Of a stretch of DNA of 20,551 nucleotides, positions 2,540 through 17,983 are shown one piece after another. The stretch covers positions 1-20,551 of the IMG/VR virus record IMGVR_UViG_3300028392_000342. The stretch is one strand, 5' to 3'. Source of the stretch: a virus. The position numbers and the translations under genes were made by a program. Under the pieces are notes generated by a model, which saw nothing but the letters and a program-made list of their open reading frames with translations, ran no database searches and was not told the DNA's origin. Position 1 is the first letter of the stretch; each line of letters starts with the position of its first letter.

Positions 2540-3562
2540 ATGTCATACATTGGAAATACACCAACATCAATACCGTTCATAGCAGATACTTTTTCTGGTA
2601 ACTCTGCTACTGTAACCTTTTCTCCTCTGACAAGAGCTCCTGCAGGTACAGCGGCTATTGCGGTGTTTATAGCTGGTGTATATCAAGCACCAGGCAACTA
2701 TACATTAAATGGAACAGCAATTACATTTGCAACTGCACCATCAACTGGTACAAACAATATTGTTGTTCTGCATTTAGGAACTGGTGCTGCAACTCAAGTA
2801 CCATCAGATGGTTCAGTCACTTTATCTAAGTTGTATAGTGATACTTACGGATATATCAATGCAGCTTTTACAACTGCAAACACTCCAAGTTATGTAGCAA
2901 ACTCAGCTGCATCATATGCTAACTCAAGTTTTTCTACTGCTAACTCAGGTTTTGCAGTTGCTAACTCAAGTGCATCATATGCCAATTCAGGTTTTGCTGT
3001 TGCTAATTCAAGTGCATTATATGCTAACTCAGGCTTTGCTGTCGCTAACTCAGCTGCAACATATGCTAACGGTGCATTTACAACTGCAAACAGTCGTGTT
3101 AATACCGCAAATACAAACACATTTACAGCTACTCAGATTTTTAACGGTTCTTCATCTGTAGTAGCATTAAAAACAAATAACATTGTTGAACTTGCAAATG
3201 TTACTGCAACAGCTGCAAACAGTACAGTAAACTTTGATATAACTACTCAATCGGTTCTGTACTACACCACTAACGCTAGTGGTAACTTTACTGTAAACTT
3301 TAGAGGTTCAAGTGGTACAGCAGCAAACACAATCATGTCTACGGGTGAATCCTTATCTGTTACTTTCTTAGTAACAAACGGAACAACTGCATATTACAAC
3401 TCTGCTGTAACCGTTGACGGAAACTCTGTTACTCCTAAGTGGCAAGGCGGTACAGCACCAACTTCTGGTAATGCAAGTTCTGTTGATAGTTACACCTATG
3501 TGATTATCAAAACGGGTAGCGCAGCCTTTACTGTTTTAGCTTCACAAACCAAGTTCGCATAA
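2540..3562 (+). CDS. Tail-fibre protein with YANSxF repeat shaft
   Basis: This 340-residue protein has three parts. The N-terminal domain (about 1-92: MSYIGNTPTSIPFIADTFSG, then PGNYTLNGTAITFATAPSTG) is a type common at the head of marine phage fibres. A shaft follows (about 107-185) of 14-residue repeats such as YANSGFAVANSSAS, with four YANxxF units. The C-terminal domain (about 190-340) is beta-rich and contains VDGNSVTPKWQGGTAPTSGN and the end FTVLASQTKF, a conserved fibre ending in T4-like marine phages from memory. The likely role is attachment of a fibre to the tail with a trimeric shaft. The stop overlaps the next ATG by one base (TAATG at 3560-3564), which points to coupled translation with the mosaic fibre downstream. 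Confidence 0.87.
   Translation: MSYIGNTPTSIPFIADTFSGNSATVTFSPLTRAPAGTAAIAVFIAGVYQAPGNYTLNGTAITFATAPSTGTNNIVVLHLGTGAATQVPSDGSVTLSKLYSDTYGYINAAFTTANTPSYVANSAASYANSSFSTANSGFAVANSSASYANSGFAVANSSALYANSGFAVANSAATYANGAFTTANSRVNTANTNTFTATQIFNGSSSVVALKTNNIVELANVTATAANSTVNFDITTQSVLYYTTNASGNFTVNFRGSSGTAANTIMSTGESLSVTFLVTNGTTAYYNSAVTVDGNSVTPKWQGGTAPTSGNASSVDSYTYVIIKTGSAAFTVLASQTKFA
2859..3093 (+). repeat. 42-bp tandem coding repeats (YANSxF), array 1
   Basis: The DNA repeats about every 42 bp, encoding 14-residue units with two xANS heptads (YANSGFA, VANSSAS). Copies have silent changes, so identity is higher in protein than in DNA. Confidence 0.85.
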
Positions 3563-6500
3563 TGCCTCGTTTATCAAAAGTTGGAGCTGCAGCATTAGCT
3601 GCTTTTGGATGGACAGGACTACAAACCGTTTCTGCTAGTTACCTTGTAGTTGGAGGTGGCGGTGGTGGCGGTGGCATTATTACCAATGGCTCTGGCGGTG
3701 GTGGCGGTGCTGGTGGTTTTCTTACAGGAACAACTACTTTAAATCCAACGCTTTCATATACAGTTACTGTTGGCGCTGGTGGTACTGCATCTGTATCTGG
3801 TTCAAATTCTGTATTTAATGCTATTACTTCTATTGGCGGTGGCGCTGGTGCTGAAGTGAGTAATAATTCTTCCGCTACTGGTGGTTCTGGTGGCGGTGGT
3901 AGCGGTCAAAGTGGAGGCACTTCTGCTGGCTCTGCTGGTACATTAGGTCAAGGTAATGCTGGTGGTACTGGCGGTCTTATTGGCGCAAATAGAGGAGGCG
4001 GTGGTGGTGGCGGTGCATCTGCTGTTGGCGCAAATCAAAATGGGTCAACAGGACAAGCAGGCGCTGGTGGTGCTGGTACTGCCTCATCTATATCAGGCAC
4101 ATCTGTAACTTATGCAGGCGGTGGTGGCGGTGGTGGTAATTCTGGTGGTGCTGGTGGTTCTGGTGGTGGCGCAAATGGTGCAAGTGCTGGAACAAGTCCT
4201 GCCCCATCAGGAACCGCCAACACTGGTGGTGGAGGTGGTGGTGGAGACCAATCATCAGCCAATCGTTTCGGTGGTTCTGGCGGCTCTGGCGTAGTCATCA
4301 TTTCATACCCTGCCCCACAACAGTTTGGTGGTGGAGTAGTCACTACAAGTGGCTCTAATGTTATTCACACATTTACTACATCAGGAACATTGGCTCCTTT
4401 GTCTTCTTTGACAGCAAGCGCATTAGTCGTTGCAGGTGGCGGTTCTGGTGGTGTTAACACAGGCGGTGGTGGCGGAGCAGGAGGATATCGCACAGGTTCT
4501 GGTTTAACCATAGACACTAATTCAATTTATCTTGTAACTGTTGGAGCAGGAGGAGCCGCTCCATCTACGTCAGGAAATCCACCGGGCAATAGTGGTTCTG
4601 ATTCTGTTTTTTATTCTTTAACCTCAACTGGTGGAGGCGGAGGCGGAGGCGGAGGAACAACTCGCTCTGGTTACACAGGCGGTTCTGGTGGTGGTGGTTC
4701 TGGAATCAATGCTGGTTCTAATGGAAATACACCATCTACATCACCAAGCCAAGGTAATAATGGTGGAACAAGTACAGATTCTGATTCTGCTGGGGCTGGT
4801 GGTGGTTCAAGTGCTGTAGGTGGCAATGGAAATTCATCAATTGGTGGAACAGGTGGAGCAGGAACTGCTAATAGCATTTCTGGTACATCAGTCACTTATG
4901 CTGGCGGTGGTGGAGGAGGTGGTAGCAATACACGGGCTGGTGGTGCAGGAGGCACGGGCGGTGGAGGTGCTGGTGGAGGTAGTGGCTCTGTTGCTGGTAC
5001 TTCTGCAACCGCAAATACAGGTAGTGGGGGCGGAGGTTCGTCTGGTGCTACTGTAGGGGGCGCTGGTGGCTCTGGCGTTGTAATCATCTCTTACGCAGGT
5101 TCTACACAGCAAATGGCTGGTGGTACTGTGACTATCTCTGGTGGTAATGTCATTCACACATTCACATCAAGCGGATACCTGACACCAATCAAGTATGTAA
5201 ACAACTCTTTGCGTTTTCGTTCTAGTGCTAGTGCTTATTTAAGTCGCACGTTCGGTACGCCTACTAATAATCTTAAATGGACGTGGAGTGCTTGGGTTAA
5301 GCGTGGGGCTTTAAGTGCAAATATTGGATTATTAGGTGCTTCAACAGATGCATATTCAACAAATTGGTTTGAATTTTATTTTGGAACAAATGACACTTTA
5401 AAGTTTGACCAAAGAGTATCGTCTACCGCTAATGTCAATGCAACAACAACCGCAGTTTTTAGAGACCCAGCGGCTTGGTATCACATAGTGTTTGTTTATG
5501 ATTCTCCAAATGCAACTGACACAAATAGATTACAACTATATGTTAATGGTGTTCGGCAAACAGTTACTTATTCAGTAGGGCCATTTGCTCAAAATACTGC
5601 CTCGCAATTAAATGCTTCTGGATATGCAGTTGGAATGTCTCCAAGTGCAGTAGGTTATTTTGACGGTTACATGACCGAAGTCAACTTCATTGACGGACAA
5701 GCCCTAACACCAAACAGTTTTGGAACATTCAATTCTTATGGTGTATGGCAACCCATCACTTATGGTGGTTCATATGGTACTAACGGCTTCTACTTGCCTT
5801 TTACTGGAAGTTCTTCGTACTATGGATCATTCAATGGTTCAAACCAGTATTTGCAAGCTACTTTGCCAGCAACATTGACTGGCGCATTTACTATTGAGTT
5901 TTTACTTTATAGAAGTGGAACAGGTAATCAGTTCTGTTTTACTTTGGGTGATAGCAACACAAGCACTGGACTTGAATACTATATTGGCACAACTGGAACA
6001 GTTAACAATGTTTATTCCAATGGCGCTCAAATTTCAACCACCTCTAATCTTCCAACAGTAAGTGCTTGGAACCATATTACAGTCACAAGAGACTCTAGCA
6101 ATGTGGTTAGATTGTTTGTTAATGGAACACAAGCGGGTAGTACATGGACAAGCGCTGCAGCGTTTTCTAGCACACTAAGAATTGGTGTTGAATATTACAA
6201 CAGCGGAATAACAGGATATGTAAATGGTAATGTGTCCAATTTCCGCATAATCAATGGAACTGCTTTATATACAGGCAATTTTGCTCCTCCAACATCTGCG
6301 TTAACTGCTGTCTCTGGTACATCAATACTTACTTTGCAAAGTTCAACAATCATTGACAACAGCGGAAACTCTTTGTCAATCACAAATAATGGAACTGTTG
6401 TTGCAAGTCAGGCGTATCCATTTACCATGCTGGCAAATCAGTCCAAAGATTATAGTCCTAATGGAAACAATTGGAATAACAATAACATTGGTGTAGTTGC

Positions 6501-7059
6501 AGGTTCAACGCTTGATGTAATGACCGATGTACCAACATTAACAAGTGCAACTGCGGCTAACTATGCTGTATATAACCCATTAGCAAAAGGTTATTCTGTA
6601 ACTATTTCTGATGGTAATTTAAAGTATTCATCTAACGGTGCATCTGGTTCAAATGGTTTAATATCAATGTACATTTCAAGTGGTATGAAAACATATTTTG
6701 AGGTTACTTGTGGTGCTGCGGCACTTTACCGAAATGTTGATTTTGGTTCTGCTGGTGTAACATATACTGGTGATGGTGGTGTTATATCTGGCGGTACAGG
6801 TGGTAGTGGAACATTTGCAACATGGACTACAGGTGATGTTATTGCTTTTGCTTGTGACTATACTGCTGGAACAATAGCATGTTATAAAAATAACACATTG
6901 CAGACAACAATCACAGGAGCAACAAATACTTCTCCTTGGTCAATCAATCCTTCTCAAGCAGTTGGACTTGGTGAATTTTATTTCAATGCTGGCCAAAGAC
7001 CGTTTGCCTATACACCACCAAGTGGCTTTGTTGGACTAAACACATATAACTTAGCATAA
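3562..7059 (+). CDS. Mosaic tail-fibre protein: two polyglycine domains, nested LamG domains, SPRY-like C-terminus
   Basis: This is the largest protein here, 1165 residues. Residues 1-26 form a short head. Two glycine-rich domains occupy about 27-250 (YLVVGGGGGGGG to GVVIISYPAP) and 284-515 (ALVVAGGGSGG to GVVIISYAGS), each followed by a copy of the linker V-I-H-T-F-T-x-S-G. A LamG/concanavalin A-like domain begins near 547 (NSLRFRSSASAYLSR; AWYHIVFVYDS; LQLYVNGVRQ). A second LamG-like domain fills about 751-950 (GSFNGSNQYLQATLPA; AWNHITVTRDSSNVVRLFVN; VSNFRIINGTALY). The broken linker resumes near 962 (DYSPNGNNWNNNNIGV). A SPRY-like domain follows from about 1000 (ISSGMKTYFEVT; TTGDVIAFACDYTAGTIACY) and ends with QRPFAYTPPSGFVGLNTYNL. 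Such beta-sandwich domains commonly bind glycans, so host-surface recognition is inferred. The start overlaps the previous stop. Confidence 0.88.
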   Translation: MPRLSKVGAAALAAFGWTGLQTVSASYLVVGGGGGGGGIITNGSGGGGGAGGFLTGTTTLNPTLSYTVTVGAGGTASVSGSNSVFNAITSIGGGAGAEVSNNSSATGGSGGGGSGQSGGTSAGSAGTLGQGNAGGTGGLIGANRGGGGGGGASAVGANQNGSTGQAGAGGAGTASSISGTSVTYAGGGGGGGNSGGAGGSGGGANGASAGTSPAPSGTANTGGGGGGGDQSSANRFGGSGGSGVVIISYPAPQQFGGGVVTTSGSNVIHTFTTSGTLAPLSSLTASALVVAGGGSGGVNTGGGGGAGGYRTGSGLTIDTNSIYLVTVGAGGAAPSTSGNPPGNSGSDSVFYSLTSTGGGGGGGGGTTRSGYTGGSGGGGSGINAGSNGNTPSTSPSQGNNGGTSTDSDSAGAGGGSSAVGGNGNSSIGGTGGAGTANSISGTSVTYAGGGGGGGSNTRAGGAGGTGGGGAGGGSGSVAGTSATANTGSGGGGSSGATVGGAGGSGVVIISYAGSTQQMAGGTVTISGGNVIHTFTSSGYLTPIKYVNNSLRFRSSASAYLSRTFGTPTNNLKWTWSAWVKRGALSANIGLLGASTDAYSTNWFEFYFGTNDTLKFDQRVSSTANVNATTTAVFRDPAAWYHIVFVYDSPNATDTNRLQLYVNGVRQTVTYSVGPFAQNTASQLNASGYAVGMSPSAVGYFDGYMTEVNFIDGQALTPNSFGTFNSYGVWQPITYGGSYGTNGFYLPFTGSSSYYGSFNGSNQYLQATLPATLTGAFTIEFLLYRSGTGNQFCFTLGDSNTSTGLEYYIGTTGTVNNVYSNGAQISTTSNLPTVSAWNHITVTRDSSNVVRLFVNGTQAGSTWTSAAAFSSTLRIGVEYYNSGITGYVNGNVSNFRIINGTALYTGNFAPPTSALTAVSGTSILTLQSSTIIDNSGNSLSITNNGTVVASQAYPFTMLANQSKDYSPNGNNWNNNNIGVVAGSTLDVMTDVPTLTSATAANYAVYNPLAKGYSVTISDGNLKYSSNGASGSNGLISMYISSGMKTYFEVTCGAAALYRNVDFGSAGVTYTGDGGVISGGTGGSGTFATWTTGDVIAFACDYTAGTIACYKNNTLQTTITGATNTSPWSINPSQAVGLGEFYFNAGQRPFAYTPPSGFVGLNTYNLA

Positions 7060-8127: not shown

Positions 8128-8475
8128 ATGAGTCATTATGCAAAAGTAGAAAACGGTATCGTCACTCAAGTGATTGTTGCTGAAGAAGACTTCATTCAAA
8201 CAGGCGCTTTAGGCGACCCTGCTGGATGGATTCAAACCTCATATAACACACATGGTGGTCAACATCCAGAAAATAGACCATTGCGTAAGAACTACGCTGG
8301 CATTGGTATGACATATGATGCAGGTCGTGATGCTTTCATTCCTCCACAACCATATCCATCTTGGACATTGAGTGAAGAGACTTGTTTATGGTCTGCGCCA
8401 ACACCAATGCCTAATGATGAAAAGGTTTATCGCTGGGATGAACCAACGTTGGCATGGGTTGAAGTAACAAGTTAA
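8128..8475 (+). CDS. Conserved small phage protein, RKNYAGIGMTYD family (copy 2)
   Basis: This 115-residue paralog of the gene at 1695-2090 shares the core RKNYAGIGMTYDAGRDAFI, then PYPSWTLSEETCLW and the ending WVEVTS. It opens with MSHYAKVENGIVTQVIVAEE and includes GWIQTSYNTHGGQHPENRPL, a form I recall as widespread in T4-like cyanophages and relatives. Function is unknown. A strong Shine-Dalgarno (AAGGAG, 8117-8122) stands 5 nt before the ATG, unlike most genes here. It is the last gene before the terminator at 8501, so it closes the fibre cassette that its paralog opens. Copy 2 looks closer to the usual family form than copy 1, which has an extra stretch before the core. Confidence 0.87.
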   Translation: MSHYAKVENGIVTQVIVAEEDFIQTGALGDPAGWIQTSYNTHGGQHPENRPLRKNYAGIGMTYDAGRDAFIPPQPYPSWTLSEETCLWSAPTPMPNDEKVYRWDEPTLAWVEVTS

Positions 8476-8500
8476 GTTAAGTAGACTCACACTAAATTAG

Positions 8501-8524
8501 ACCACCCTTATGGGTGGTTTTTTT
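8501..8524 (+). terminator. Rho-independent terminator
   Basis: A perfect 7-bp stem (ACCACCC, loop TTAT, GGGTGGT) runs directly into seven T residues. It stands 25 nt after the stop of the previous gene and just before a new late promoter cluster. It is the only convincing intrinsic terminator I found in the window. Confidence 0.92.
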
Positions 8525-8545
8525 ATTGCCTTAACTTCCACTTTG

Positions 8546-8564
8546 ACTAAATAGACTATAAATA
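8546..8564 (+). promoter_or_regulatory. Late promoter boxes ACTAAATA and TATAAATA
   Basis: TATAAATA at 8557-8564 is an exact match to the T4 late -10 consensus. ACTAAATA at 8546-8553 is a second candidate 11 bp upstream. From the consensus box the transcript would start near 8570 and contain the AAGGAG at 8577. The position directly after a terminator supports a true start of a transcription unit. Confidence 0.82.
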
Positions 8565-8576
8565 AAAAATATTTTT

Positions 8577-8582
8577 AAGGAG
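8577..8582 (+). promoter_or_regulatory. Shine-Dalgarno AAGGAG that fixes an AUC start at 8590
   Basis: This is a strong ribosome binding site with no ATG, GTG or TTG at a usable distance. The codon at the normal spacing (7 nt) is ATC at 8590, in the frame of the following protein. Confidence 0.75.
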
Positions 8583-8589
8583 AATTAAA

Positions 8590-8922
8590 ATCGCTGCATT
8601 TTCCGAGCTGCTCATTGAACAGGGCGCAACTTTCTCCACCACAGTAAATGTAGTAGACACAGCAGGAGTTGCTGTTAATCTTTACGGATATTCTGCATCT
8701 TCTCAAATGCGTAAATCATTTTACGCTACATCAAGCACAATAATTACTTCCACCGTTACAGGCAATTCTAACGGTGAAATTACTCTTTCTATGACGGCAG
8801 CTAATACTGCTAATCTTTCGCCAGGAAGAATGGTTTTTGATTTGCTTATCACTTCACCAGCTTCCGTGAAAACAAGAGTTATTGAAGGAATTATTGTGAT
8901 ATCGCCAGGAGTTACACAGTAA
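8590..8922 (+). CDS. Small conserved virion protein with apparent AUC start
   Basis: The frame is open from 8566 to TAA 8920-8922. From ATC 8590 it encodes 110 residues. The first ATG in frame is at 8707 (codon 40), but coding similarity begins well before it. The upstream part reads AAFSELLIEQGATFSTTVNV, then DTAGVAVNLYGYSASSQMRK, as I recall from homologs in T4-like marine phages, which open with MA[AS]FAE. The rest (ITLSMTAANTANLSPGRMVF; the ending IIVISPGVTQ) looks like a small beta-sandwich, of a type often near baseplate and fibre genes. No ATG, GTG or TTG occurs in frame between 8566 and 8707. ATT at 8584 is too close to the Shine-Dalgarno. Initiation at AUC, a start-codon mutation, or a sequence error are the options. 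The stop overlaps the next ATG. Confidence 0.75.
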   Translation: MAAFSELLIEQGATFSTTVNVVDTAGVAVNLYGYSASSQMRKSFYATSSTIITSTVTGNSNGEITLSMTAANTANLSPGRMVFDLLITSPASVKTRVIEGIIVISPGVTQ

Positions 8923-9137
8923 TGGCCATCACAGGAATAGTTAGACAGCAAACTCGTTCAGTAATCGCTGCCCAAAACTTTGCACCAAAACCAAATATAG
9001 CTATATCTGAAGTTTCAGGTGTGAATGTTGCAAGTGTTCAGAATGGTCAATCATTAGTATATAATTCCACATCCGGAAAATTTGAAGCTAATACGATTTC
9101 AGCTACAGTTACCTCACTTGATGGAGGTAGATTCTAA
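8922..9137 (+). CDS. Small phage protein with GGxF C-terminus
   Basis: This 71-residue protein is joined at both ends by one-base TAATG overlaps (8920-8924 and 9135-9139), so it is coupled to both neighbours. It opens with MAITGIVRQQTRSVIAAQNF. The middle carries VQNGQSLVYNSTSGKFEANT, a short motif frequent in phage fibre and structural proteins. It ends LDGGRF, one of four GGxF endings in this block. There is no membrane segment. The function is unknown; a linker or minor virion part of the adjoining fibre is a guess from context. It is not a fragment of either neighbour, since its motif structure is complete. Confidence 0.78.
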   Translation: MAITGIVRQQTRSVIAAQNFAPKPNIAISEVSGVNVASVQNGQSLVYNSTSGKFEANTISATVTSLDGGRF

Positions 9138-11683
9138 TGGCATATACACCAATAACACTAAAATATTCTACAGCAAATTCAACACCAACAACGTTGAATG
9201 TGGCCGAACCTGCGTATTCATATACAAGTAATACACTTTTTATTGGTACAGAAGGCAGTGATGGTTATCTTGCAATTGGCGGTCAATATTACATAGACCA
9301 ACAAGCACAAATATTTGCAAAAACAAATGCAGCTTTTACGGCTGCAAATTCTGGTTCAGGTGCTGCAGCCGCTGGGTCTTACGCAAACGCTGGATTTTCA
9401 ACTGCTAATTCAGCTGCAAGTTATGCTAATGCGGCTTTTGCAGCTGCAAATAATTCAACTGACCTTTGGGTAAGAACACAAGCAAACTCCGCATTTAATC
9501 AAGCTAATGCGGCCTTTATTCAAGCAAATACACCAAGTTATGTTGCTAACTCCGCAGCTACCTATGCGAACGGTGCATTTGCAACAGCTAATACAAAATT
9601 CAGTTCATCTGGTGGTACAATCTCAGGTGACACAAACATTACTGGTAACTTAACTGTTACTGGTACCACAACATACGCAAATACTGTTACAGTATTAATT
9701 GCTGATAATATTATTACAGTTAATGCCGCTATCAGTCAGTCAGCACAACCAACAGCAAACGCTGGTATTGAAGTTGACCGTGGCGCACAACCAAACGCAC
9801 AGTTTATTTGGGTTGAAACTGCTGGTAAGTGGTCTGCAAATAATGGCAATGGTTCATTCTATATTGGTTCAGAATCAGATGGTTCTTATGCTAATGCAGC
9901 TTTCTTACAAGCAAACACACCAAGTTATGTTTCTAACTCGGCATCTAGTTACGCAAATTCAGCCTTCATTCAAGCAAATGCGGCCTTTACTGCTGCTAAT
10001 AATGCAGGCGGTACAGTATCAGGTAATACAATAAATCTTGGTGCAAACACGGTAGGTCTTTTAGTAAGTAATGCAGTAACACTTACAACGACAACAAAAG
10101 TAACTGATGGTTTGGCATTAATTAATAATGTATTAGGTAAATTAGTTCCACCTGGCCCACCTGCTTTTCCATCTGGTAACAACATTACTATTGCTTCTAC
10201 ATCCTCTTATAGGATGGCCAACTTCACACAGACTGATAGAACATCAAGTAGTCGTAGTGTTGCAGCTGGTACAACAGTTACAAACGCAAAACGAGTTGCG
10301 TCATATGGACTAACATCTGTTGTTAACGACCAAGGTCCTGGCGATAGCGGCACATTAACATTATTTGTTAATAGTGCTAACGCAGTTGCTTATACATTTA
10401 CATCTTCAAGTGCCAACGGTACTTACACAAGTGGTAATCATTCTTTAGTTATCTCTGATAGTGTTGATTATGGTTCTAAGATTGTAGGAACTGCACAAGG
10501 ATTCTGGAGAAGTTTTGACTGTACCGCAAGTGGTACAGTTTCAAATGGTTGGAATGAATTATACATTTCTCATAGTGGCGCATCTTCTACTAACACTCCA
10601 TTCTGGTACTATGATGATAGTGCGCCAGGTGCTGTTGTAATTAATAATGGTAGTTTGACTGCCAACTCTGTCGCATATTCTAATTCATCAACAGTTCCAC
10701 ATTACACAAGTGCCACACTATTTAACCTTGGATTTAATATCTCTAAGTTGAGTGGCGATATGTATCCAACAAGTGATACATTTGTTTCATCTGCTGCTGG
10801 TGGTGCATTAGGTGCTAACGGTGGAGTAACATATGCACAAGCAGGTATCACAACACCACTTGCAAGAAATCTTTATGTTTCAAGTGGTCAAGCAACAGTT
10901 AATTTAACATCAGCAGTTATTGCTGGCTTTGGTAGTAGTTCTACAGGTGTTTCAGTAACGGGTCAAAATAGTTACACAGCAGGTTCACTTACAGTTAACC
11001 CATCAGGTACAATTCTCTATAAAACAGGCAATACAAGTTCTAATACTGTAATTGGTGGAGAAGATAATTTATTTTTTGGTTCTACAGTTGGTACAGGTTC
11101 AACAGCGGCGTATCGTATCGTCAATCCAGGTTCTACTGATACACCTGCATATGCAAATGGTGCATCAGCGTTTGATTCAACGAATGGAACACTCCAAACA
11201 TATGATGCTACAGTAGTTGCTAGTACATTAAAACATGACCAAACAAATTATGCTTCAGGTTATTTACCTGTTGGTCCAAATTTAAGTTCAGGTAGAACTG
11301 GCCCACAATACTTTACATTCAAATTTGTTAGAACATCTTTGTCTAAATTTGATATTCAATTTACAGGTAACACTGCTGGTGTTTGGGTTGCAGCACCAGG
11401 AACTGTAATTGATTCAACTTCTTCCTTGAATGGCTGGTTGTCTATGACCAGTGCGTATTCAGGCTCTGGAATTCCTGGTGTTAATTCACCAGGAAATGGT
11501 AGCAACGGTTGTGCTTTAGGCGGAATTATTACTGCAAACACTTCAGTTACAACACATAGAAAGACTTGTACATTTGGTACAGTATCAACATCTAATTCTA
11601 CTGGTAATGAAGTTTATGTGAGATTTAAATTGTTGGCTGGCCAAACTATTACTGCTCTTTCATTACAAACAGCGAATAATTAA
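9137..11683 (+). CDS. Large tail-fibre-like virion protein
   Basis: 848 residues. Residues 1-70 (ITLKYSTANSTPTTLNVAEP; AYSYTSNTLFIGTEG; YIDQQAQIFAKTNAAF) form a head domain shared with the 556-residue protein at 12313, of the Mtd_N-like kind. YANxxF repeats follow (five units, about 74-155 and 250-290), interrupted by a beta module starting GGTISGDTNITGNLTVTGTT (about 158). From about 335 the protein is a large beta-rich region with TAQGFWRSFDCTASGTVSNG, PHYTSATLFNLGFNISKLSG and the C-terminal block FKFVRTSLSKFDIQFTG, WVAAPGTVIDSTSSLNGW, GNGSNGCALGGIITANTSV and GNEVYVRFKLLAGQTITAL. I recall this C-terminal block from large structural proteins of T4-like marine phages. The likely role is a baseplate-proximal fibre. 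It contains no repeat of the polyglycine type. Confidence 0.86.
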   Translation: MAYTPITLKYSTANSTPTTLNVAEPAYSYTSNTLFIGTEGSDGYLAIGGQYYIDQQAQIFAKTNAAFTAANSGSGAAAAGSYANAGFSTANSAASYANAAFAAANNSTDLWVRTQANSAFNQANAAFIQANTPSYVANSAATYANGAFATANTKFSSSGGTISGDTNITGNLTVTGTTTYANTVTVLIADNIITVNAAISQSAQPTANAGIEVDRGAQPNAQFIWVETAGKWSANNGNGSFYIGSESDGSYANAAFLQANTPSYVSNSASSYANSAFIQANAAFTAANNAGGTVSGNTINLGANTVGLLVSNAVTLTTTTKVTDGLALINNVLGKLVPPGPPAFPSGNNITIASTSSYRMANFTQTDRTSSSRSVAAGTTVTNAKRVASYGLTSVVNDQGPGDSGTLTLFVNSANAVAYTFTSSSANGTYTSGNHSLVISDSVDYGSKIVGTAQGFWRSFDCTASGTVSNGWNELYISHSGASSTNTPFWYYDDSAPGAVVINNGSLTANSVAYSNSSTVPHYTSATLFNLGFNISKLSGDMYPTSDTFVSSAAGGALGANGGVTYAQAGITTPLARNLYVSSGQATVNLTSAVIAGFGSSSTGVSVTGQNSYTAGSLTVNPSGTILYKTGNTSSNTVIGGEDNLFFGSTVGTGSTAAYRIVNPGSTDTPAYANGASAFDSTNGTLQTYDATVVASTLKHDQTNYASGYLPVGPNLSSGRTGPQYFTFKFVRTSLSKFDIQFTGNTAGVWVAAPGTVIDSTSSLNGWLSMTSAYSGSGIPGVNSPGNGSNGCALGGIITANTSVTTHRKTCTFGTVSTSNSTGNEVYVRFKLLAGQTITALSLQTANN
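9340..9600 (+). repeat. YANxxF coding repeats, array 2
   Basis: Degenerate 42-bp units encode SYANAGFSTANSAA, SYANAAFAAANNS and TYANGAFATANT, mixed with shorter QANxAF units. A smaller group recurs at about 9885-10010 in the same gene. Confidence 0.75.
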
Positions 11684-12312: not shown

Positions 12313-13983
12313 ATGGCAAATACAGTAATTCAACTAAAGTGGTCTGATGCAACCTCAGCACCAACTAGTTTAAATGTCGGTGAGGCGGCATATTCAAATA
12401 CCTCAAATAAATTATTTATTGGTGATACTGCTGGTAATGTTCTTACTATTGGCGGTAAATTTTATGTAGACCAACAAGGTCAGATATTTACAAAAACTAA
12501 CGTAGCATTTGATGCCGCCAATAGTGCTGGTTCATATGCTAACGCAGCTTTCAATTACGCAAATACCAATTCAGCTGGTGCAGCTGCAGGTGCTTATGCT
12601 AATGCGGCCTTTAGTACAGCTAACTCAGCATCTACTTACGCCAACTCTGCGTTTCTATCTGCTAATACTCCATCTTATGTTGCTAATAGTGCAGCCAGTT
12701 ATGCCAATTCTGGTTTTGCCGTAGCCAACAGTTCTGCTTCTTATGCAAATAGTGGTTTCTCAACTGCTAACTCTGCTGGTTCATATGCTAACTCTGCGTT
12801 TAGTTTAGCAAACGGCCATAGTGCTATTGCTAACTCAGCAGCCGCTTACGCAAACTCTGGTTTTGCAGTTGCCAACTCAGCTGCAATTTATGCTAACTCT
12901 GCATATACTCGTGCTAATAATAGTATCAATGCAAATACTGGCGGTACAATTACTGCTGACTTGGTTATTACTGGCAACTTGACAGTTCAAGGTAATACAA
13001 CTTATGTTGATACACGAACAATTACAACAGGTGATTCATTAATCCATCTTGCCAATAATAATACGGCAGGTGATACAGTTGATATTGGTTTCTACGGAAC
13101 GTATAACTCAGGTGGTCAGAAATATACCGGTCTTGTAAGACAAGCTGGTGCAAACTATTTCTTGTTTAAAGATTTAACAAGTGACCCAACTGCAAACGTT
13201 CTTGCTCCTGGCTCCCTAACTGCTGCTAATACAGGCACATTGACCGCTAATTTAACTGCATATTCAGTTACAATTAATGGTCAAGACATTAATCAATTTG
13301 CAACAAATGCTTATACACAGGCAAATACTGCTGTAACTAATGCATCTGCGGCAAGTTCATATGCTAATTCGGCCTTTGGTGTTGCAAATACTGCTAGTTC
13401 AAGTGGAACTTCTGCTGGTGCATACGCTAACTCTGGATTTGCAGTAGCTAATAGTTCTGCTTCGTACGCTAACTCTGGTTTTGCAGTCGCTAATAGTGCA
13501 GCTGTATATGCAAATAGTGGTTTTGCAGTTGCCAATTCAGCTGCAATTTATGCTAACTCAGCATTTGCTGCTGCTAACAATACTGCTGGTGTAAATCTTA
13601 CACAAAATAATAGTATTAGTTCAGCTGCAAGTTATGCCAATTCTGCTTTCTCAACTGCTAACACCGATGTTACAGGTATTAGTATTACTGCTGCCGATTA
13701 TGGTACAGCATCTTCTGTTGCTGCTTTCCATATTGAAGCAAACGGTCGTATTAGTTCTGCAAACTCAACTGCGATTGCAATTGCGGCTTCTGCGATTACA
13801 TCTGGCACATTAGGTGTTCCAAGAGGTGGTACAGGAGCTGGTACATTTACTAATAACGGTGTTCTGTTAGGTCAAGGCACTAGTGCATTTAGTACCGCAT
13901 CATCGTCAACTGAAGGTCATGTGTTAACTATCAATGCTTCAGGTGTTCCAACCTTCTCATATATACAGGGTGGAACATTCTAA
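12313..13983 (+). CDS. Tail-fibre protein with YANSxF shaft and GGxF C-terminus
   Basis: 556 residues. The head (about 1-72: TVIQLKWSDATSAPTSLNVG; KLFIGDTAGNVLTIGGKFYV; QQGQIFTKTN) is paralogous to that of the 848-residue protein. Shaft 1 (about 73-205) and shaft 2 (about 345-450) hold some fourteen YANxxF/Y units. Between them lies a beta module (about 208-330: LVITGNLTVQGNTTYVDT; SLIHLANNNTAGDTVDIGFY; GLVRQAGANYFLFKDL) shared with the 683-residue protein. The C-terminus has VAAFHIEANGRISSANS, then TLGVPRGGTGAGTFTNNGVL and LTINASGVPTFSYIQGGTF, common phage fibre ending motifs. The role is inferred as a trimeric fibre attached near the baseplate. It has its own late promoter box and a recognisable Shine-Dalgarno. 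Confidence 0.87.
   Translation: MANTVIQLKWSDATSAPTSLNVGEAAYSNTSNKLFIGDTAGNVLTIGGKFYVDQQGQIFTKTNVAFDAANSAGSYANAAFNYANTNSAGAAAGAYANAAFSTANSASTYANSAFLSANTPSYVANSAASYANSGFAVANSSASYANSGFSTANSAGSYANSAFSLANGHSAIANSAAAYANSGFAVANSAAIYANSAYTRANNSINANTGGTITADLVITGNLTVQGNTTYVDTRTITTGDSLIHLANNNTAGDTVDIGFYGTYNSGGQKYTGLVRQAGANYFLFKDLTSDPTANVLAPGSLTAANTGTLTANLTAYSVTINGQDINQFATNAYTQANTAVTNASAASSYANSAFGVANTASSSGTSAGAYANSGFAVANSSASYANSGFAVANSAAVYANSGFAVANSAAIYANSAFAAANNTAGVNLTQNNSISSAASYANSAFSTANTDVTGISITAADYGTASSVAAFHIEANGRISSANSTAIAIAASAITSGTLGVPRGGTGAGTFTNNGVLLGQGTSAFSTASSSTEGHVLTINASGVPTFSYIQGGTF
12511..12918 (+). repeat. 42-bp tandem coding repeats (YANSxF), array 3
   Basis: About eight 14-residue units, e.g. 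YANSGFAVANSSAS, with mixed codons (GCTAAC, GCCAAT, GCAAAT for Ala-Asn). A second array of six units lies at 13355-13660 in the same gene. Confidence 0.85.
13355..13660 (+). repeat. 42-bp tandem coding repeats (YANSxF), array 4
   Basis: This array includes three nearly perfect consecutive 42-bp units (YANSGFAVANSxAx) around 13430-13545, the most regular stretch in the window. Confidence 0.85.
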
Positions 13984-14004: not shown

Positions 14005-14511
14005 ATGAGTGTAGAATTTTCAAATGCGTATCAAGAGGTTTTGCTTGAGAACTTAGATGTAATACTCAAGCAGAACTTTATGATGCAAGCAAGATTAAAA
14101 TTGCTTGAAAAGGAAGCAAATCTTCGTGCAGAAATGCAGGCAAAAATTGATGAACTTACAGTACAACACCAAAATGCGATACAACAAGTTGAGCAAACAC
14201 AACATTATAGAACGCAAGCGGAAAGTAATGATGCAATAGTTCAAGAAAAAACTAGAATTCAATCTGCTTTAAATGATACCATGCAAGAGCTTGGTACCAC
14301 AAAAAAATCATTAGATTCAATTACGCAAGAATTGAGTTTAAAAAATAAAGAAGTAGAAGAAATGAAATCTCGTATTTCTGAATTGGAAAAATTAATTACT
14401 CTTGCACCCAAAGTTGTTAAAAAACTTACTGTAAAGACTGAAGATAAGCCTGTTGAAATTTCTGCTACTGAAACCGAAAAAGAAAAGGTTGAGGTCGGCG
14501 GTACATTTTAA
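14005..14511 (+). CDS. Coiled-coil protein with GGTF C-terminus
   Basis: This 168-residue protein opens MSVEFSNAYQEVLLENLDVI, a start I recall from a conserved T4-like marine phage protein of unknown function. From about 30 to 133 it is almost all charged or polar helix (ARLKLLEKEANLRAEMQAKI; LKNKEVEEMKSRISELEKLI) with heptad-like spacing, so a long coiled coil is inferred. A Lys/Glu/Thr-rich linker follows and it ends EVGGTF. AAGGA precedes the ATG by 6 nt. The stop overlaps the next ATG (14509-14513), tying it to the following fibre. A fibre-assembly scaffold or a rod-like virion part are both possible. It lacks the repeats of its neighbours. Confidence 0.82.
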   Translation: MSVEFSNAYQEVLLENLDVILKQNFMMQARLKLLEKEANLRAEMQAKIDELTVQHQNAIQQVEQTQHYRTQAESNDAIVQEKTRIQSALNDTMQELGTTKKSLDSITQELSLKNKEVEEMKSRISELEKLITLAPKVVKKLTVKTEDKPVEISATETEKEKVEVGGTF

Positions 14512-15923
14512 TGGCAAATACAGTAATACAACTTAAAAACTCCACCATCACTGGCAATGTTCCATCATCGCTGGCTAATGGTGAAATTTCCATCAACAGT
14601 CGTGATGGAAAGTTTTTCTATTCCACTCCGTCTGGCTCAGTCATCACCCATTATCCTTATTTGGGACCAGCAGGTCTCAATAAGGAAATTCAATTCAATG
14701 ATAGTGGAACTCTAGGTTCAAACTCAGGCTTAGCATTTGACAAATCAACCGGTTATTTAACTTCAACATTACTAAGAAGTAGTCAATCTGTTGGTGATGA
14801 AGGCGGCCAATTAGATTTAGCTACTGCCGCAACAAATAATACACTTGTTGGCGGTTTTGTTAACATTGATATCTTTCAAAATAAATTAAGAATTTTTGAA
14901 TCTGGTGGCACAAATCGTGGTGTTTATATTGATTTGGCCAATGGTGCTTCATCTGGAGTTGGAACAAACTTATTATCGCCATCATCATCTACTGATGGTT
15001 GGGCACGAAATCAAGCCAATGCGGCTTTTTTACAGGCCAATACTCCAAGTTACACGGCCAATTCTGCGGCTTCTTATGGTAACTCAGCGTTTGCTACTGC
15101 TAACTCTGCCGCTAGTTATGCAAACTCATCATTTTTAGCAGCTAATACTCCAAGTAATGTGGCCAATAGTGCCGCATCATATGCTAATTCCGCATTTGTA
15201 AAAGCAAACTCAGCCTTTATTGCTGCTAATGCGGCCTTCATTAGAGCAAACAACTCACTAGATGCTAATAACGGCGGTACTGTTAACGGCACAATTACTG
15301 CAAATTCGTTTATTACAACAGGCAGTTTTGGTAATATTCAAGGCGCAAACGCCATCTATGCAAATACTTTTATAGCCAACACAGGCGGCTATATTCAGTT
15401 TTCGGATGGGTCAAAACAATATACTGCAAACGCTGGTTCAGGTGGATCCGATACTTCTGCTGGTTCGTATGCTAACTCTGGATTTGCTGTTGCTAATAGT
15501 TCTGCTAGTTACGCTAATGCAGCTTTTGCTCAAGCAAATACTGGTTCTGGAGCTGCATCTGCTGGTTCATATGCTAACTCAGCATTTGGTAAAGCAAATT
15601 CTGCTTGCACTGCTGCTGCAACAGCTCAATCAACAGCATCTAGTGCCGCTGGAGCCGCTTCGGCCGCACAAGCTACCGCCGATGCAGCTTATAATACTAA
15701 TGATTTTGCTTTAATCTATACGCCAAATAATGCAACAACTATTACTGCATCTGCTAGAAGGGATACTTTTAATATTGTTGGAGAATCTGGCGTTGTTGCT
15801 TATGCAAATTCTTCAACAAAAACAATCACGGTTGCTGGTACTCCAGGCGCACAAGGATTAACGGTAGACTATGGATTTGTTGCGGATCCTTTATATTATG
15901 CCATTGATTACGGGACACTATAA
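14511..15923 (+). CDS. Tail-fibre protein with Mtd_N-like head and YANSxF repeats
   Basis: 470 residues. The head (about 1-50: TVIQLKNSTITGNVPSSLAN; GEISINSRDGKFFYSTPSGS) resembles the N-terminal domain of phage tropism proteins (Mtd_N-like) and is followed by KEIQFNDSGTLGSNSGLAFD, a motif frequent in phage fibres. A beta segment (about 95-160) precedes a repeat shaft from about 165 to 250 and again at 318-365. A short Ala-rich helix follows (ACTAAATAQSTASSAAGAAS), then a small C-terminal domain ending FVADPLYYAIDYGTL. The inferred role is another baseplate-proximal fibre. The last codons overlap the TATAAATA box used by the next gene. Its C-terminal part differs from the other repeat fibres, so the family shares shafts but not tips. 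Confidence 0.85.
   Translation: MANTVIQLKNSTITGNVPSSLANGEISINSRDGKFFYSTPSGSVITHYPYLGPAGLNKEIQFNDSGTLGSNSGLAFDKSTGYLTSTLLRSSQSVGDEGGQLDLATAATNNTLVGGFVNIDIFQNKLRIFESGGTNRGVYIDLANGASSGVGTNLLSPSSSTDGWARNQANAAFLQANTPSYTANSAASYGNSAFATANSAASYANSSFLAANTPSNVANSAASYANSAFVKANSAFIAANAAFIRANNSLDANNGGTVNGTITANSFITTGSFGNIQGANAIYANTFIANTGGYIQFSDGSKQYTANAGSGGSDTSAGSYANSGFAVANSSASYANAAFAQANTGSGAASAGSYANSAFGKANSACTAAATAQSTASSAAGAASAAQATADAAYNTNDFALIYTPNNATTITASARRDTFNIVGESGVVAYANSSTKTITVAGTPGAQGLTVDYGFVADPLYYAIDYGTL
15010..15255 (+). repeat. YANSxF coding repeats, array 5
   Basis: Repeat units alternate SYANSxF with longer LxANTPSYxANSAA units. One unit has Gly for Ala (SYGNSAF). A smaller group lies at 15463-15605. 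Confidence 0.75.
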
Positions 15924-15931: not shown

Positions 15932-17983
15932 ATGTCAACACAAGTTCAAATACGAAGAGGTAATACAGCACAAACATCAACCTTTACAGGTGTTGTTGCT
16001 GAACTTACTGTAGATACAGATAAAAAAACAATAGTTGTCCATGACGGGTCAACTGCTGGTGGTATTCCTCTAGCTAGAGAAAATGCAAGTAATACCACTG
16101 GTTCATATGCTAACTCTGCGTATGCAACTGCCAATTCTGCACAGTCATATGCTAACGCAGCTTTTGCGACCGCAAATACTACAGCAGCTGCTGGCACTTA
16201 TGGTAACTCTGCATTTGGTGTTGCTAACTCAGCCGCTAGTTATGCCAATTCAGGATTCATAACAGCTAATAGCGCTGGTGTATATGCAAATAGTGCGTTT
16301 GCTGCGGCAAATGCGGCCAGTGCAACTGACGCTACGCAAAATACCAATATTACAAATGCTGGTACATATGCCAACTCAGCATTTACAACTGCAAACAGTT
16401 CTGGTGTTTATGCTAACTCCGCATTTGCAGCCGCTAATGCAGCTACTGCGACTGATGCTACACAAAATACAAATATCACCTCAGCCGCAACATATGCTAA
16501 TGGTGCTTTTGTAACTGCTAACAATGCGGTAACATCAACAAATGGTAATATAGCTTGGGCTACTGCTAATTCAGCTGCAACTTATGCTAATTCTTCCTTC
16601 TTAGCAGCTAATACTCCAAGTTATACTGCTAACTCAGCTGCAATTTATGCTAACGGTGCATTTACAACTGCTAATAATGCTTTAACTGCTTCAAATGGTT
16701 CCATTGCATGGTCTACTGCTAACTCAGCCGCTAGTTATGCCAATTCAGGATTTGCTGTTGCCAATTCTGCTGGTTCATATGCTAACTCCGCTTTTGCTGT
16801 AGCAAATAATGGTGTTGGTATTGATGTTACACAGAATACTAATATTACAAACGCTGGTACATATGCTAATGCGGCTTTCTTAGTTGCTAATACTCCAACT
16901 CATGTAGCCAACTCAGCCGCAACATATGCTAACGGTGCTTTCACTCGTGCTAATAATGCAATTAATGCCAACACAGGTGGTACAATTACTGGTGATTTAA
17001 GTATTACAGGTAACTTAACTGTTAGTGGTAACACAAGTTATATTGATACAAGAACAATCACAACACAAGATTCGTTAATTAGACTTGCTAATAATAATAT
17101 TGTTGGTGATGTAATTGATATTGGTTTTTACGGTGTTGCAAATACAAATACAGCTTCACCTAGTGGTACCACATATCACGGATTAATAAGACAAGCTGCT
17201 GGTAATTTTGTATTATTTAAAAATATTAACCAAGATCCAAGTAGTAATGTAGTTAATACTGCGTATATTACTGTTACAAATACTGCAACTTTAATTGCCA
17301 ATGTTCAAGCATATAGTATTACAAGTAATGGGGTTGATGTATTTGTTTACACCACTAATGCTTATACACAAGCAAATACAGCTGCAACAAATGCAACTAA
17401 TGTTGGCACATATGCTAACGCTGCTTTCTTAGCGGCTAATACTCCATCTTATGTTGCTAATAGTGCTGCTAGTTATGCTAATAGTGGATTTGCTGTAGCT
17501 AATAGTGGAAGTTCTTATGCTAACTCAGCTTTTGCTGTAGCAAATAACGGTGTTGGTATTGATACAACTCAAAATACTAATATTACATCAGCTGCATCTT
17601 ACGCTAACTCCGCTTTCTTATCAGCAAATACTCCTAGTAATGTAGCAAACTCTGCGGCTTTGTATGCTAACTCCGCTTTCGCAGCAGCAAACAATTCATC
17701 GTCTGCCGGTTCTTACGGTAACTCTGCATTTGCTGTTGCTAATTCAGCAGCATCTTATGCAAATAGTGGATTTGCTGTTGCTAACTCGGCTGCAACTTAT
17801 GCTAATGGTGCTTTTACCAAAGCAAATACTGATTTTACTAACATAATAATAACAGATGGTACATATGGTAACTCAGCATATTATCCAATCATTACTGTTT
17901 CTGCAAATGGTAGAATTAATGTTGTAACAACTCAAGTAGTAACTGATCCAAGTGCTATCGCATTTGCAATCGCTTTAGGATAA
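15932..17983 (+). CDS. Long YANSxF-repeat fibre protein in the wac (whisker) position
   Basis: 683 residues. The head (about 1-50: QVQIRRGNTAQTSTFTGVVA; ELTVDTDKKTIVVHDGSTAG) is Mtd_N-like. The shaft spans about 55-345 and 485-635, with about twenty YANxxF units. Four copies of TQNTNIT are spaced through it, forming a longer repeat. The middle module (about 348-470: LSITGNLTVSGNTSYIDT; SLIRLANNNIVGDVIDIGFY) is shared with the protein at 12313. The end has YYPIITVSANGRINVVTTQV. It directly precedes gp13, as fibritin (wac) does in T4, and its segmented shaft would fit a whisker or fibre. However, no fibritin foldon is seen, so this is an inference from order only. No good Shine-Dalgarno precedes the start. 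Confidence 0.85.
   Translation: MSTQVQIRRGNTAQTSTFTGVVAELTVDTDKKTIVVHDGSTAGGIPLARENASNTTGSYANSAYATANSAQSYANAAFATANTTAAAGTYGNSAFGVANSAASYANSGFITANSAGVYANSAFAAANAASATDATQNTNITNAGTYANSAFTTANSSGVYANSAFAAANAATATDATQNTNITSAATYANGAFVTANNAVTSTNGNIAWATANSAATYANSSFLAANTPSYTANSAAIYANGAFTTANNALTASNGSIAWSTANSAASYANSGFAVANSAGSYANSAFAVANNGVGIDVTQNTNITNAGTYANAAFLVANTPTHVANSAATYANGAFTRANNAINANTGGTITGDLSITGNLTVSGNTSYIDTRTITTQDSLIRLANNNIVGDVIDIGFYGVANTNTASPSGTTYHGLIRQAAGNFVLFKNINQDPSSNVVNTAYITVTNTATLIANVQAYSITSNGVDVFVYTTNAYTQANTAATNATNVGTYANAAFLAANTPSYVANSAASYANSGFAVANSGSSYANSAFAVANNGVGIDTTQNTNITSAASYANSAFLSANTPSNVANSAALYANSAFAAANNSSSAGSYGNSAFAVANSAASYANSGFAVANSAATYANGAFTKANTDFTNIIITDGTYGNSAYYPIITVSANGRINVVTTQVVTDPSAIAFAIALG
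16096..16960 (+). repeat. YANSxF arrays with a longer TQNTNIT super-repeat, array 6
   Basis: About twelve YANxxF units. Two successive copies of a roughly 46-residue unit (GVYANSAFAAANAA, then ATDATQNTNIT, then TYANxAF) lie near 16275-16400 and 16413-16510. A TQNTNIT variant recurs near 16825. Confidence 0.8.
17380..17832 (+). repeat. YANSxF coding repeats, array 7
   Basis: About eight units, with a TQNTNIT copy near 17565-17590. It is separated from array 6 by the beta module. Confidence 0.8.

Follow-up and report, generated by a model that had tools for sequence, protein, structure and literature searches.

The window analysed here is a virus record of 20,551 bases (IMGVR_UViG_3300028392_000342), whose right end encodes T4-like neck and tail proteins (gp13-like, gp14 and gp15) and which also contains several tail-fibre-like genes. 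The features listed next, from the terminator to the fibre gene at 9137..11683, lie on the plus strand. An intrinsic terminator at 8499..8528 (stem 8499-8520 with nine pairs and a loop of four, followed by a T-run) closes the upstream unit, and T-runs occur at a comparable position 5ʹ of many relatives. It is followed by a T4-type late-promoter box, CTAAATA, at 8547..8553 within TTGACTAAATA, which is conserved in relatives, and by a putative second or alternative box at 8557..8564, TATAAATA, which is identical to the T4 late consensus TATAAATA (PMC3014915) and thus a perfect match. Both boxes are located 33-43 nt 5ʹ of the ATC at 8590..8592. A strong Shine-Dalgarno (SD) sequence, AAGGAG, lies at 8577..8582 (anti-SD duplex of -7.1 kcal/mol) and is separated from this ATC by the 7-nt spacer AATTAAA (8583-8589). 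The ATC starts a gene for a 110-aa protein with an Ig-like fold (8590..8922), which is followed by a gene for a 71-aa protein (8922..9137), whose ATG overlaps the preceding stop (TAATG) and which has its own SD, AGGAG, at 8907-8911, and then by a tail-fibre-like gene (9137..11683) with an ATG start and the SD GGAGG. The other genes tallied in the window all start with ATG (16/16).

The AUC-started gene thus opens a late operon, in keeping with the earlier note made from the sequence alone, which had placed it at the head of a unit after a terminator; the late boxes lie 3ʹ of that terminator. The positions given there for AAGGAG and for the ATC 7 nt downstream were correct, and inspection of the frame confirmed that no ATG, GTG or TTG occurs in it from the upstream stop (TAA, 8563-8565) up to the ATG of Met codon 40 (8707..8709).

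We also noted several features elsewhere in the window. Two related small proteins (1695-2090 and 8128-8475) have a common stretch like RKNYAGIGMTYDA.RDAFI, and one of them closes the unit right before the terminator. Five fibre-like genes (2540-3562, 9137-11683, 12313-13983, 14511-15923 and 15932-17983) have common N-terminal segments and runs of YANSAF/ANSA repeats, which suggests that fibre genes may have been duplicated. Three further proteins (3-686, 695-1621 and 3562-7059) are very glycine-rich, with repeated VTYAGGGGGGG blocks, and the long one, 3562-7059, contains internally duplicated units.

The 39 codons before 8707 had been described as coding, and this was supported by three lines of evidence. 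The pN/pS ratio of codons 2-39, calculated against ten relatives, was 0.07-0.23, similar to or lower than that of codons 40-110, and the 60 nt upstream of the ATC were only 30-50% identical to those of relatives, the nearest relative excepted. In the AlphaFold2 model, two strands (residues 3-10 and 15-20) and the greater part of a third (35-41) precede the Met codon 40, and these first three strands would be lost or truncated by a start at that Met. Finally, homologs of the 110-residue frame aligned from codon 1 and had their start codon exactly at the position of 8590. The N-terminus given in the earlier note, MA[AS]FAE, was close to that of the relatives, but these read (M/V/L/I)AAFSE or (M/V/L/I)AAFTE.

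Since ATA, ATT and ATC all encode isoleucine, and each of them is found in the subclade of the window, codon 1 could in principle be an internal isoleucine, with translation beginning at an upstream codon or at Met 8707. We consider this very improbable. Upstream there are only eight open codons, which include the SD and contain no standard start, whereas a start at 8707 would lose strands that are under purifying selection. Valine at the aligned codon 1 was encoded by GTG in 20/20 cases and leucine by TTG in 30/30, although within the gene GTG made up only 8 of 128 valine codons and TTG 20 of 116 leucine codons. The isoleucine codons of the window are mostly ATT (194/302), yet ATT was the rarest of the ATH codons (ATA, ATT and ATC) at codon 1 (3/24 rows; changes on the tree: ATC 6, ATA 3, ATT 3; p ~0.007). 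Because the rows of the tree are related, simple p-values of this kind overstate the evidence, and counts of independent changes are safer. The exclusive use of GTG and TTG, together with isoleucine usage that departs from the ATT preference of the window, indicates that codon 1 is a start and not an internal residue. Gene callers restricted to ATG, GTG and TTG will consequently overlook ATH-started members of the family or shorten them (here to a start at codon 40).

The 110-aa protein gave no Pfam match above the cut-off. It matched two PHROG profiles, phrog_1084 (E 8e-24) and phrog_3304 (E 7e-20), and AlphaFold2 modelling based on an alignment of 76 members returned an Ig-like fold with a mean pLDDT of 94.1. 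The top Foldseek matches of the model were 8hqz and 7qg9, the p132 collar of T5-type phages (E ~1e-7 to 1e-6; TM up to 0.81, to 8hqz_T). By fold and profile, the gene product is a homolog of the phage T5 collar protein p132, the anchor of the side tail fibres. In T5, a p132 dodecamer encircles the tail and holds three L-shaped fibres (PMC10038345). The window protein resembles p132 of T5 and DT57C in its Ig-like fold and in its assignment to PHROG 3304, "L-shaped tail fiber protein assembly", and the window gene adjoins fibre genes. It differs in sequence, with ~20% identity, and in context, as the window particle is T4-like judging from its genes, whereas T5 is a siphophage.

To follow the start codon across the family, we used 88 distinct close relatives from metagenomic contigs, the window included, which were collected in a first scan, three further scans and a scan for the promoter-plus-SD pattern. 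A search of 50,697 phage records for a relative with at least 60% identity gave none, and a genome collection gave four distant matches only. The aligned start codon was TTG in 30 of the 88, GTG in 20, ATC in 16, ATG in 14, ATA in 5 and ATT in 3. In the pattern scan, which constrained only the second base of the start codon, 45 of 47 family members were non-ATG (GTG 15, TTG 13, ATC 9, ATA 5, ATT 3, ATG 2). The non-AUG start is thus a family-wide trait that extends beyond the window phage. ATG was used by more distant family members and by homologs in cultured phages (HTVC008M, Melnitz, Mosig and MED4-213); the latter speak against the idea of a selected weak start.

The earlier note had offered three explanations for the AUC: deliberately low expression, a point mutation of ATG to ATC, or a sequencing error. 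ATC is indeed only one base from ATG, so that a change or a wrong base call confined to the window contig would suffice to produce it. However, in the nearest relative (two contigs, 93% identical in protein) the aligned codon is ATT and the DNA 5ʹ of it is almost the same as in the window, and ATC starts also recur in other contigs from separate lineages and metagenomes, so that no base-call error is needed. An isolated point mutation is likewise contradicted by the 74 of 88 close relatives that are non-ATG, with five kinds of codon and with ATC in several separate lineages; none of the nearest relatives, which have ATT or ATA, uses ATG. We regard both forms of accident as extremely improbable. 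The comparative data instead favour deliberately low expression among the three options, and the conserved non-AUG start points to selection for a start that may be deliberately weak, not to an error.

A tree of 93 rows was used to count the start-codon changes. It requires 23 changes in all, of which 14 lead from one of the classes ATG, ATH and GTG-TTG to another; ATC accounts for 6 changes. These counts are rough, because the protein is short and many forks are unresolved, and the starred branches alone force fewer changes. The window falls into a supported set of six (99/97), in which ATA occurs three times, ATT twice, ATC once and ATG not at all. If the start worked throughout, a move by point mutation between ATH and GTG/TTG would pass through ATG, as two substitutions separate the AUH codons from GUG/UUG, with AUG as the sole good intermediate. 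The repeated changes of class thus suggest that AUG was reached and then abandoned, or that leaders recombined. The differing leaders of two close proteins, L085 and L086, would allow such a leader swap by recombination as an alternative to passage via ATG.

The SD was strong in non-ATG relatives almost without exception, and GGAG was kept in nearly all of them. The mean anti-SD duplex energy was -6.9 kcal/mol for non-ATG members and -3.3 kcal/mol for the ATG members of the clade (Mann-Whitney p 6e-4, kinship ignored). Of the non-ATG relatives, 60/63 had a TAAATA box 27-43 nt before the start, versus 5/12 of the ATG relatives. Weak start codons are thus coupled to a strong SD in this family, in the same direction as in bacteria, in which GUG and UUG genes are likelier to carry a strong SD (Belinky et al., PMC5622118). 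Five ATG members had a strong SD and no obvious hairpin, indicating that the restraint is not absolute.

Neighbouring genes at the same loci served as controls. Homologs of neighbouring window genes started with ATG in 20/22, 57/57, 63/64 and 26/26 cases, counts that overlap since some of the N-termini are paralogous; the 57/57 loci are those with N-termini orthologous or paralogous to that of the 9137..11683 fibre gene. At the fetched loci, 50/53 other genes that follow a late box plus SD used ATG, compared with 5/61 for the collar gene (Fisher p ~1e-22, with the relatedness of the sequences ignored). Three control genes were exceptions; in one of them the non-ATG codon is followed at once by ATG, and another resembles an unrelated chance match. 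The control scan yielded just one other plausible case of a non-ATG late gene, on L333 at 2579, where a TTG with a late box and AAGGA starts a 186-codon frame. In these sequences, avoidance of AUG is specific to the collar gene.

A different arrangement was observed in a subclade of relatives (L092, L169, L180, L198, L168 and their relatives), in which an inverted repeat has its 5ʹ arm before the late box and the SD as its 3ʹ arm. The repeat is located ~10-55 nt 5ʹ of the homologous start codon and its loop contains the late promoter, for example AACTCCCGTTTT-aactaaatagacgat-AAAACGGGAGT. In 13 sequences of this subclade all ten positions were paired (10/10), as compared with 0.14% of shuffles, and several pair types were present per position. 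The SD was predicted to be fully buried in read-through RNA and to be at least partly freed in RNA from the late promoter, the 5ʹ end of which was assumed. In the window, a hairpin hiding the SD was not significant (duplex of -5.9 kcal/mol, matched by 38% of shuffles), and the SD accessibility (0.26 vs 0.30) indicated no detectable sequestration by the upstream arm. The same gene would be restrained by two different devices within one family, which supports the notion that its translation is held down.

Taken as a whole, we think it likely that translation is initiated at AUC 8590 by means of the strong SD, and that a weak start has been selected by which far less of the small collar protein is made than of the products of the AUG-started fibre genes further along the late operon. 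The ordinary initiator fMet-tRNA would read AUC despite mispairing at the third codon position, and the strong SD would hold and stabilise initiation at the mismatched codon. As AUU and AUA starts with an extended SD gave ~10% of the AUG output in S. aureus reporters (PMC13009471), by analogy the output here may be lowered about ten-fold. The downstream genes need not share the low rate, because they have their own SD and ATG. The reason for a low output may be stoichiometry, as a surplus of a ring-forming anchor could sequester fibres. Against a low output stands the fact that p132 of T5 is a dodecamer (PMC10038345), so that more than single copies of the protein are required. An unusual initiator tRNA encoded by the phage was also considered, and a scan of eight related contigs, whose completeness is not established, gave no support for it: four of the eight, two of them with ATC starts, contained no tRNA, and in the remaining contigs the loci that were read carried ordinary anticodons.

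The combination of a strong SD and a poor start might alternatively serve the mRNA, with a ribosome waiting near the 5ʹ end and shielding the long late fibre transcript. Indeed, only ~10-20 nt separate the SD from the inferred 5ʹ end, and the gene is the first of a long operon; however, the collar protein itself is under purifying selection, and we find this explanation improbable. It is also quite unlikely, in our opinion, that the weak start is a regulated switch responding to IF3 or to the growth state and not a fixed brake, as the interchange of GTG and TTG with ATH on the tree is more easily reconciled with a low rate than with one specific sensor. As a switch, the start would let the gene be expressed mainly upon changes in the initiation fidelity or nutrient state of the infected cell. 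GTG and TTG are far less sensitive to IF3 than near-cognate ATH starts. The case for a switch is that infC (AUU; ATC in Streptomyces) and sigR (GTC) are repressed by IF3 (PMC5472188) and that the output from the AUA start of S. aureus ccpN went from ~10% to 30% with the medium (PMC13009471). The broader proposal that AUG was lost from one virion gene in a whole lineage of environmental T4-like phages and is kept out by selection, and that the start acts as a gate by which IF3 or the host state controls tail-fibre attachment, beyond a constant brake, is in our view rather unlikely.

Weak non-AUG starts are already known, and for infC (AUU in E. coli, ATC in Streptomyces), pcnB (AUU) and sigR (GTC) the rare start limits translation. 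An ATC start, as proposed here, has a precedent in infC of Streptomyces (PMC5472188). However, IF3, the product of infC, regulates its own gene, and no such loop would be expected for a structural collar protein. A similar layout is seen in the Staphylococcus genes cvfC1 (AUU), ccpN (AUA) and infC (AUA), which, as here, combine an AUH start with a very strong SD and are conserved in relatives (PMC13009471); cvfC1 is also the first gene of its operon, like the collar gene of the window. Those are cellular genes, whereas here a phage virion gene is concerned, in which five non-AUG codons replace one another. The hairpin of the subclade is laid out as in the T4 genes e, soc, 49 and I-TevI, where the SD is hidden in read-through RNA and the late promoter lies inside the structure (PMC3014915); in the window, by contrast, the SD is not detectably sequestered, and the T4 cases are described as AUG starts. 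Among ~69,000 reconstructed ancestral start codons of bacteria and archaea, two switches to AUU and none to AUC were reported (PMC5622118). A family-wide avoidance of AUG in a phage virion gene seems, from a limited search of the open-access literature, to be undescribed. With five interchangeable non-AUG starts on one tree and the neighbouring genes as controls, this family makes selection against AUG directly accessible to study.
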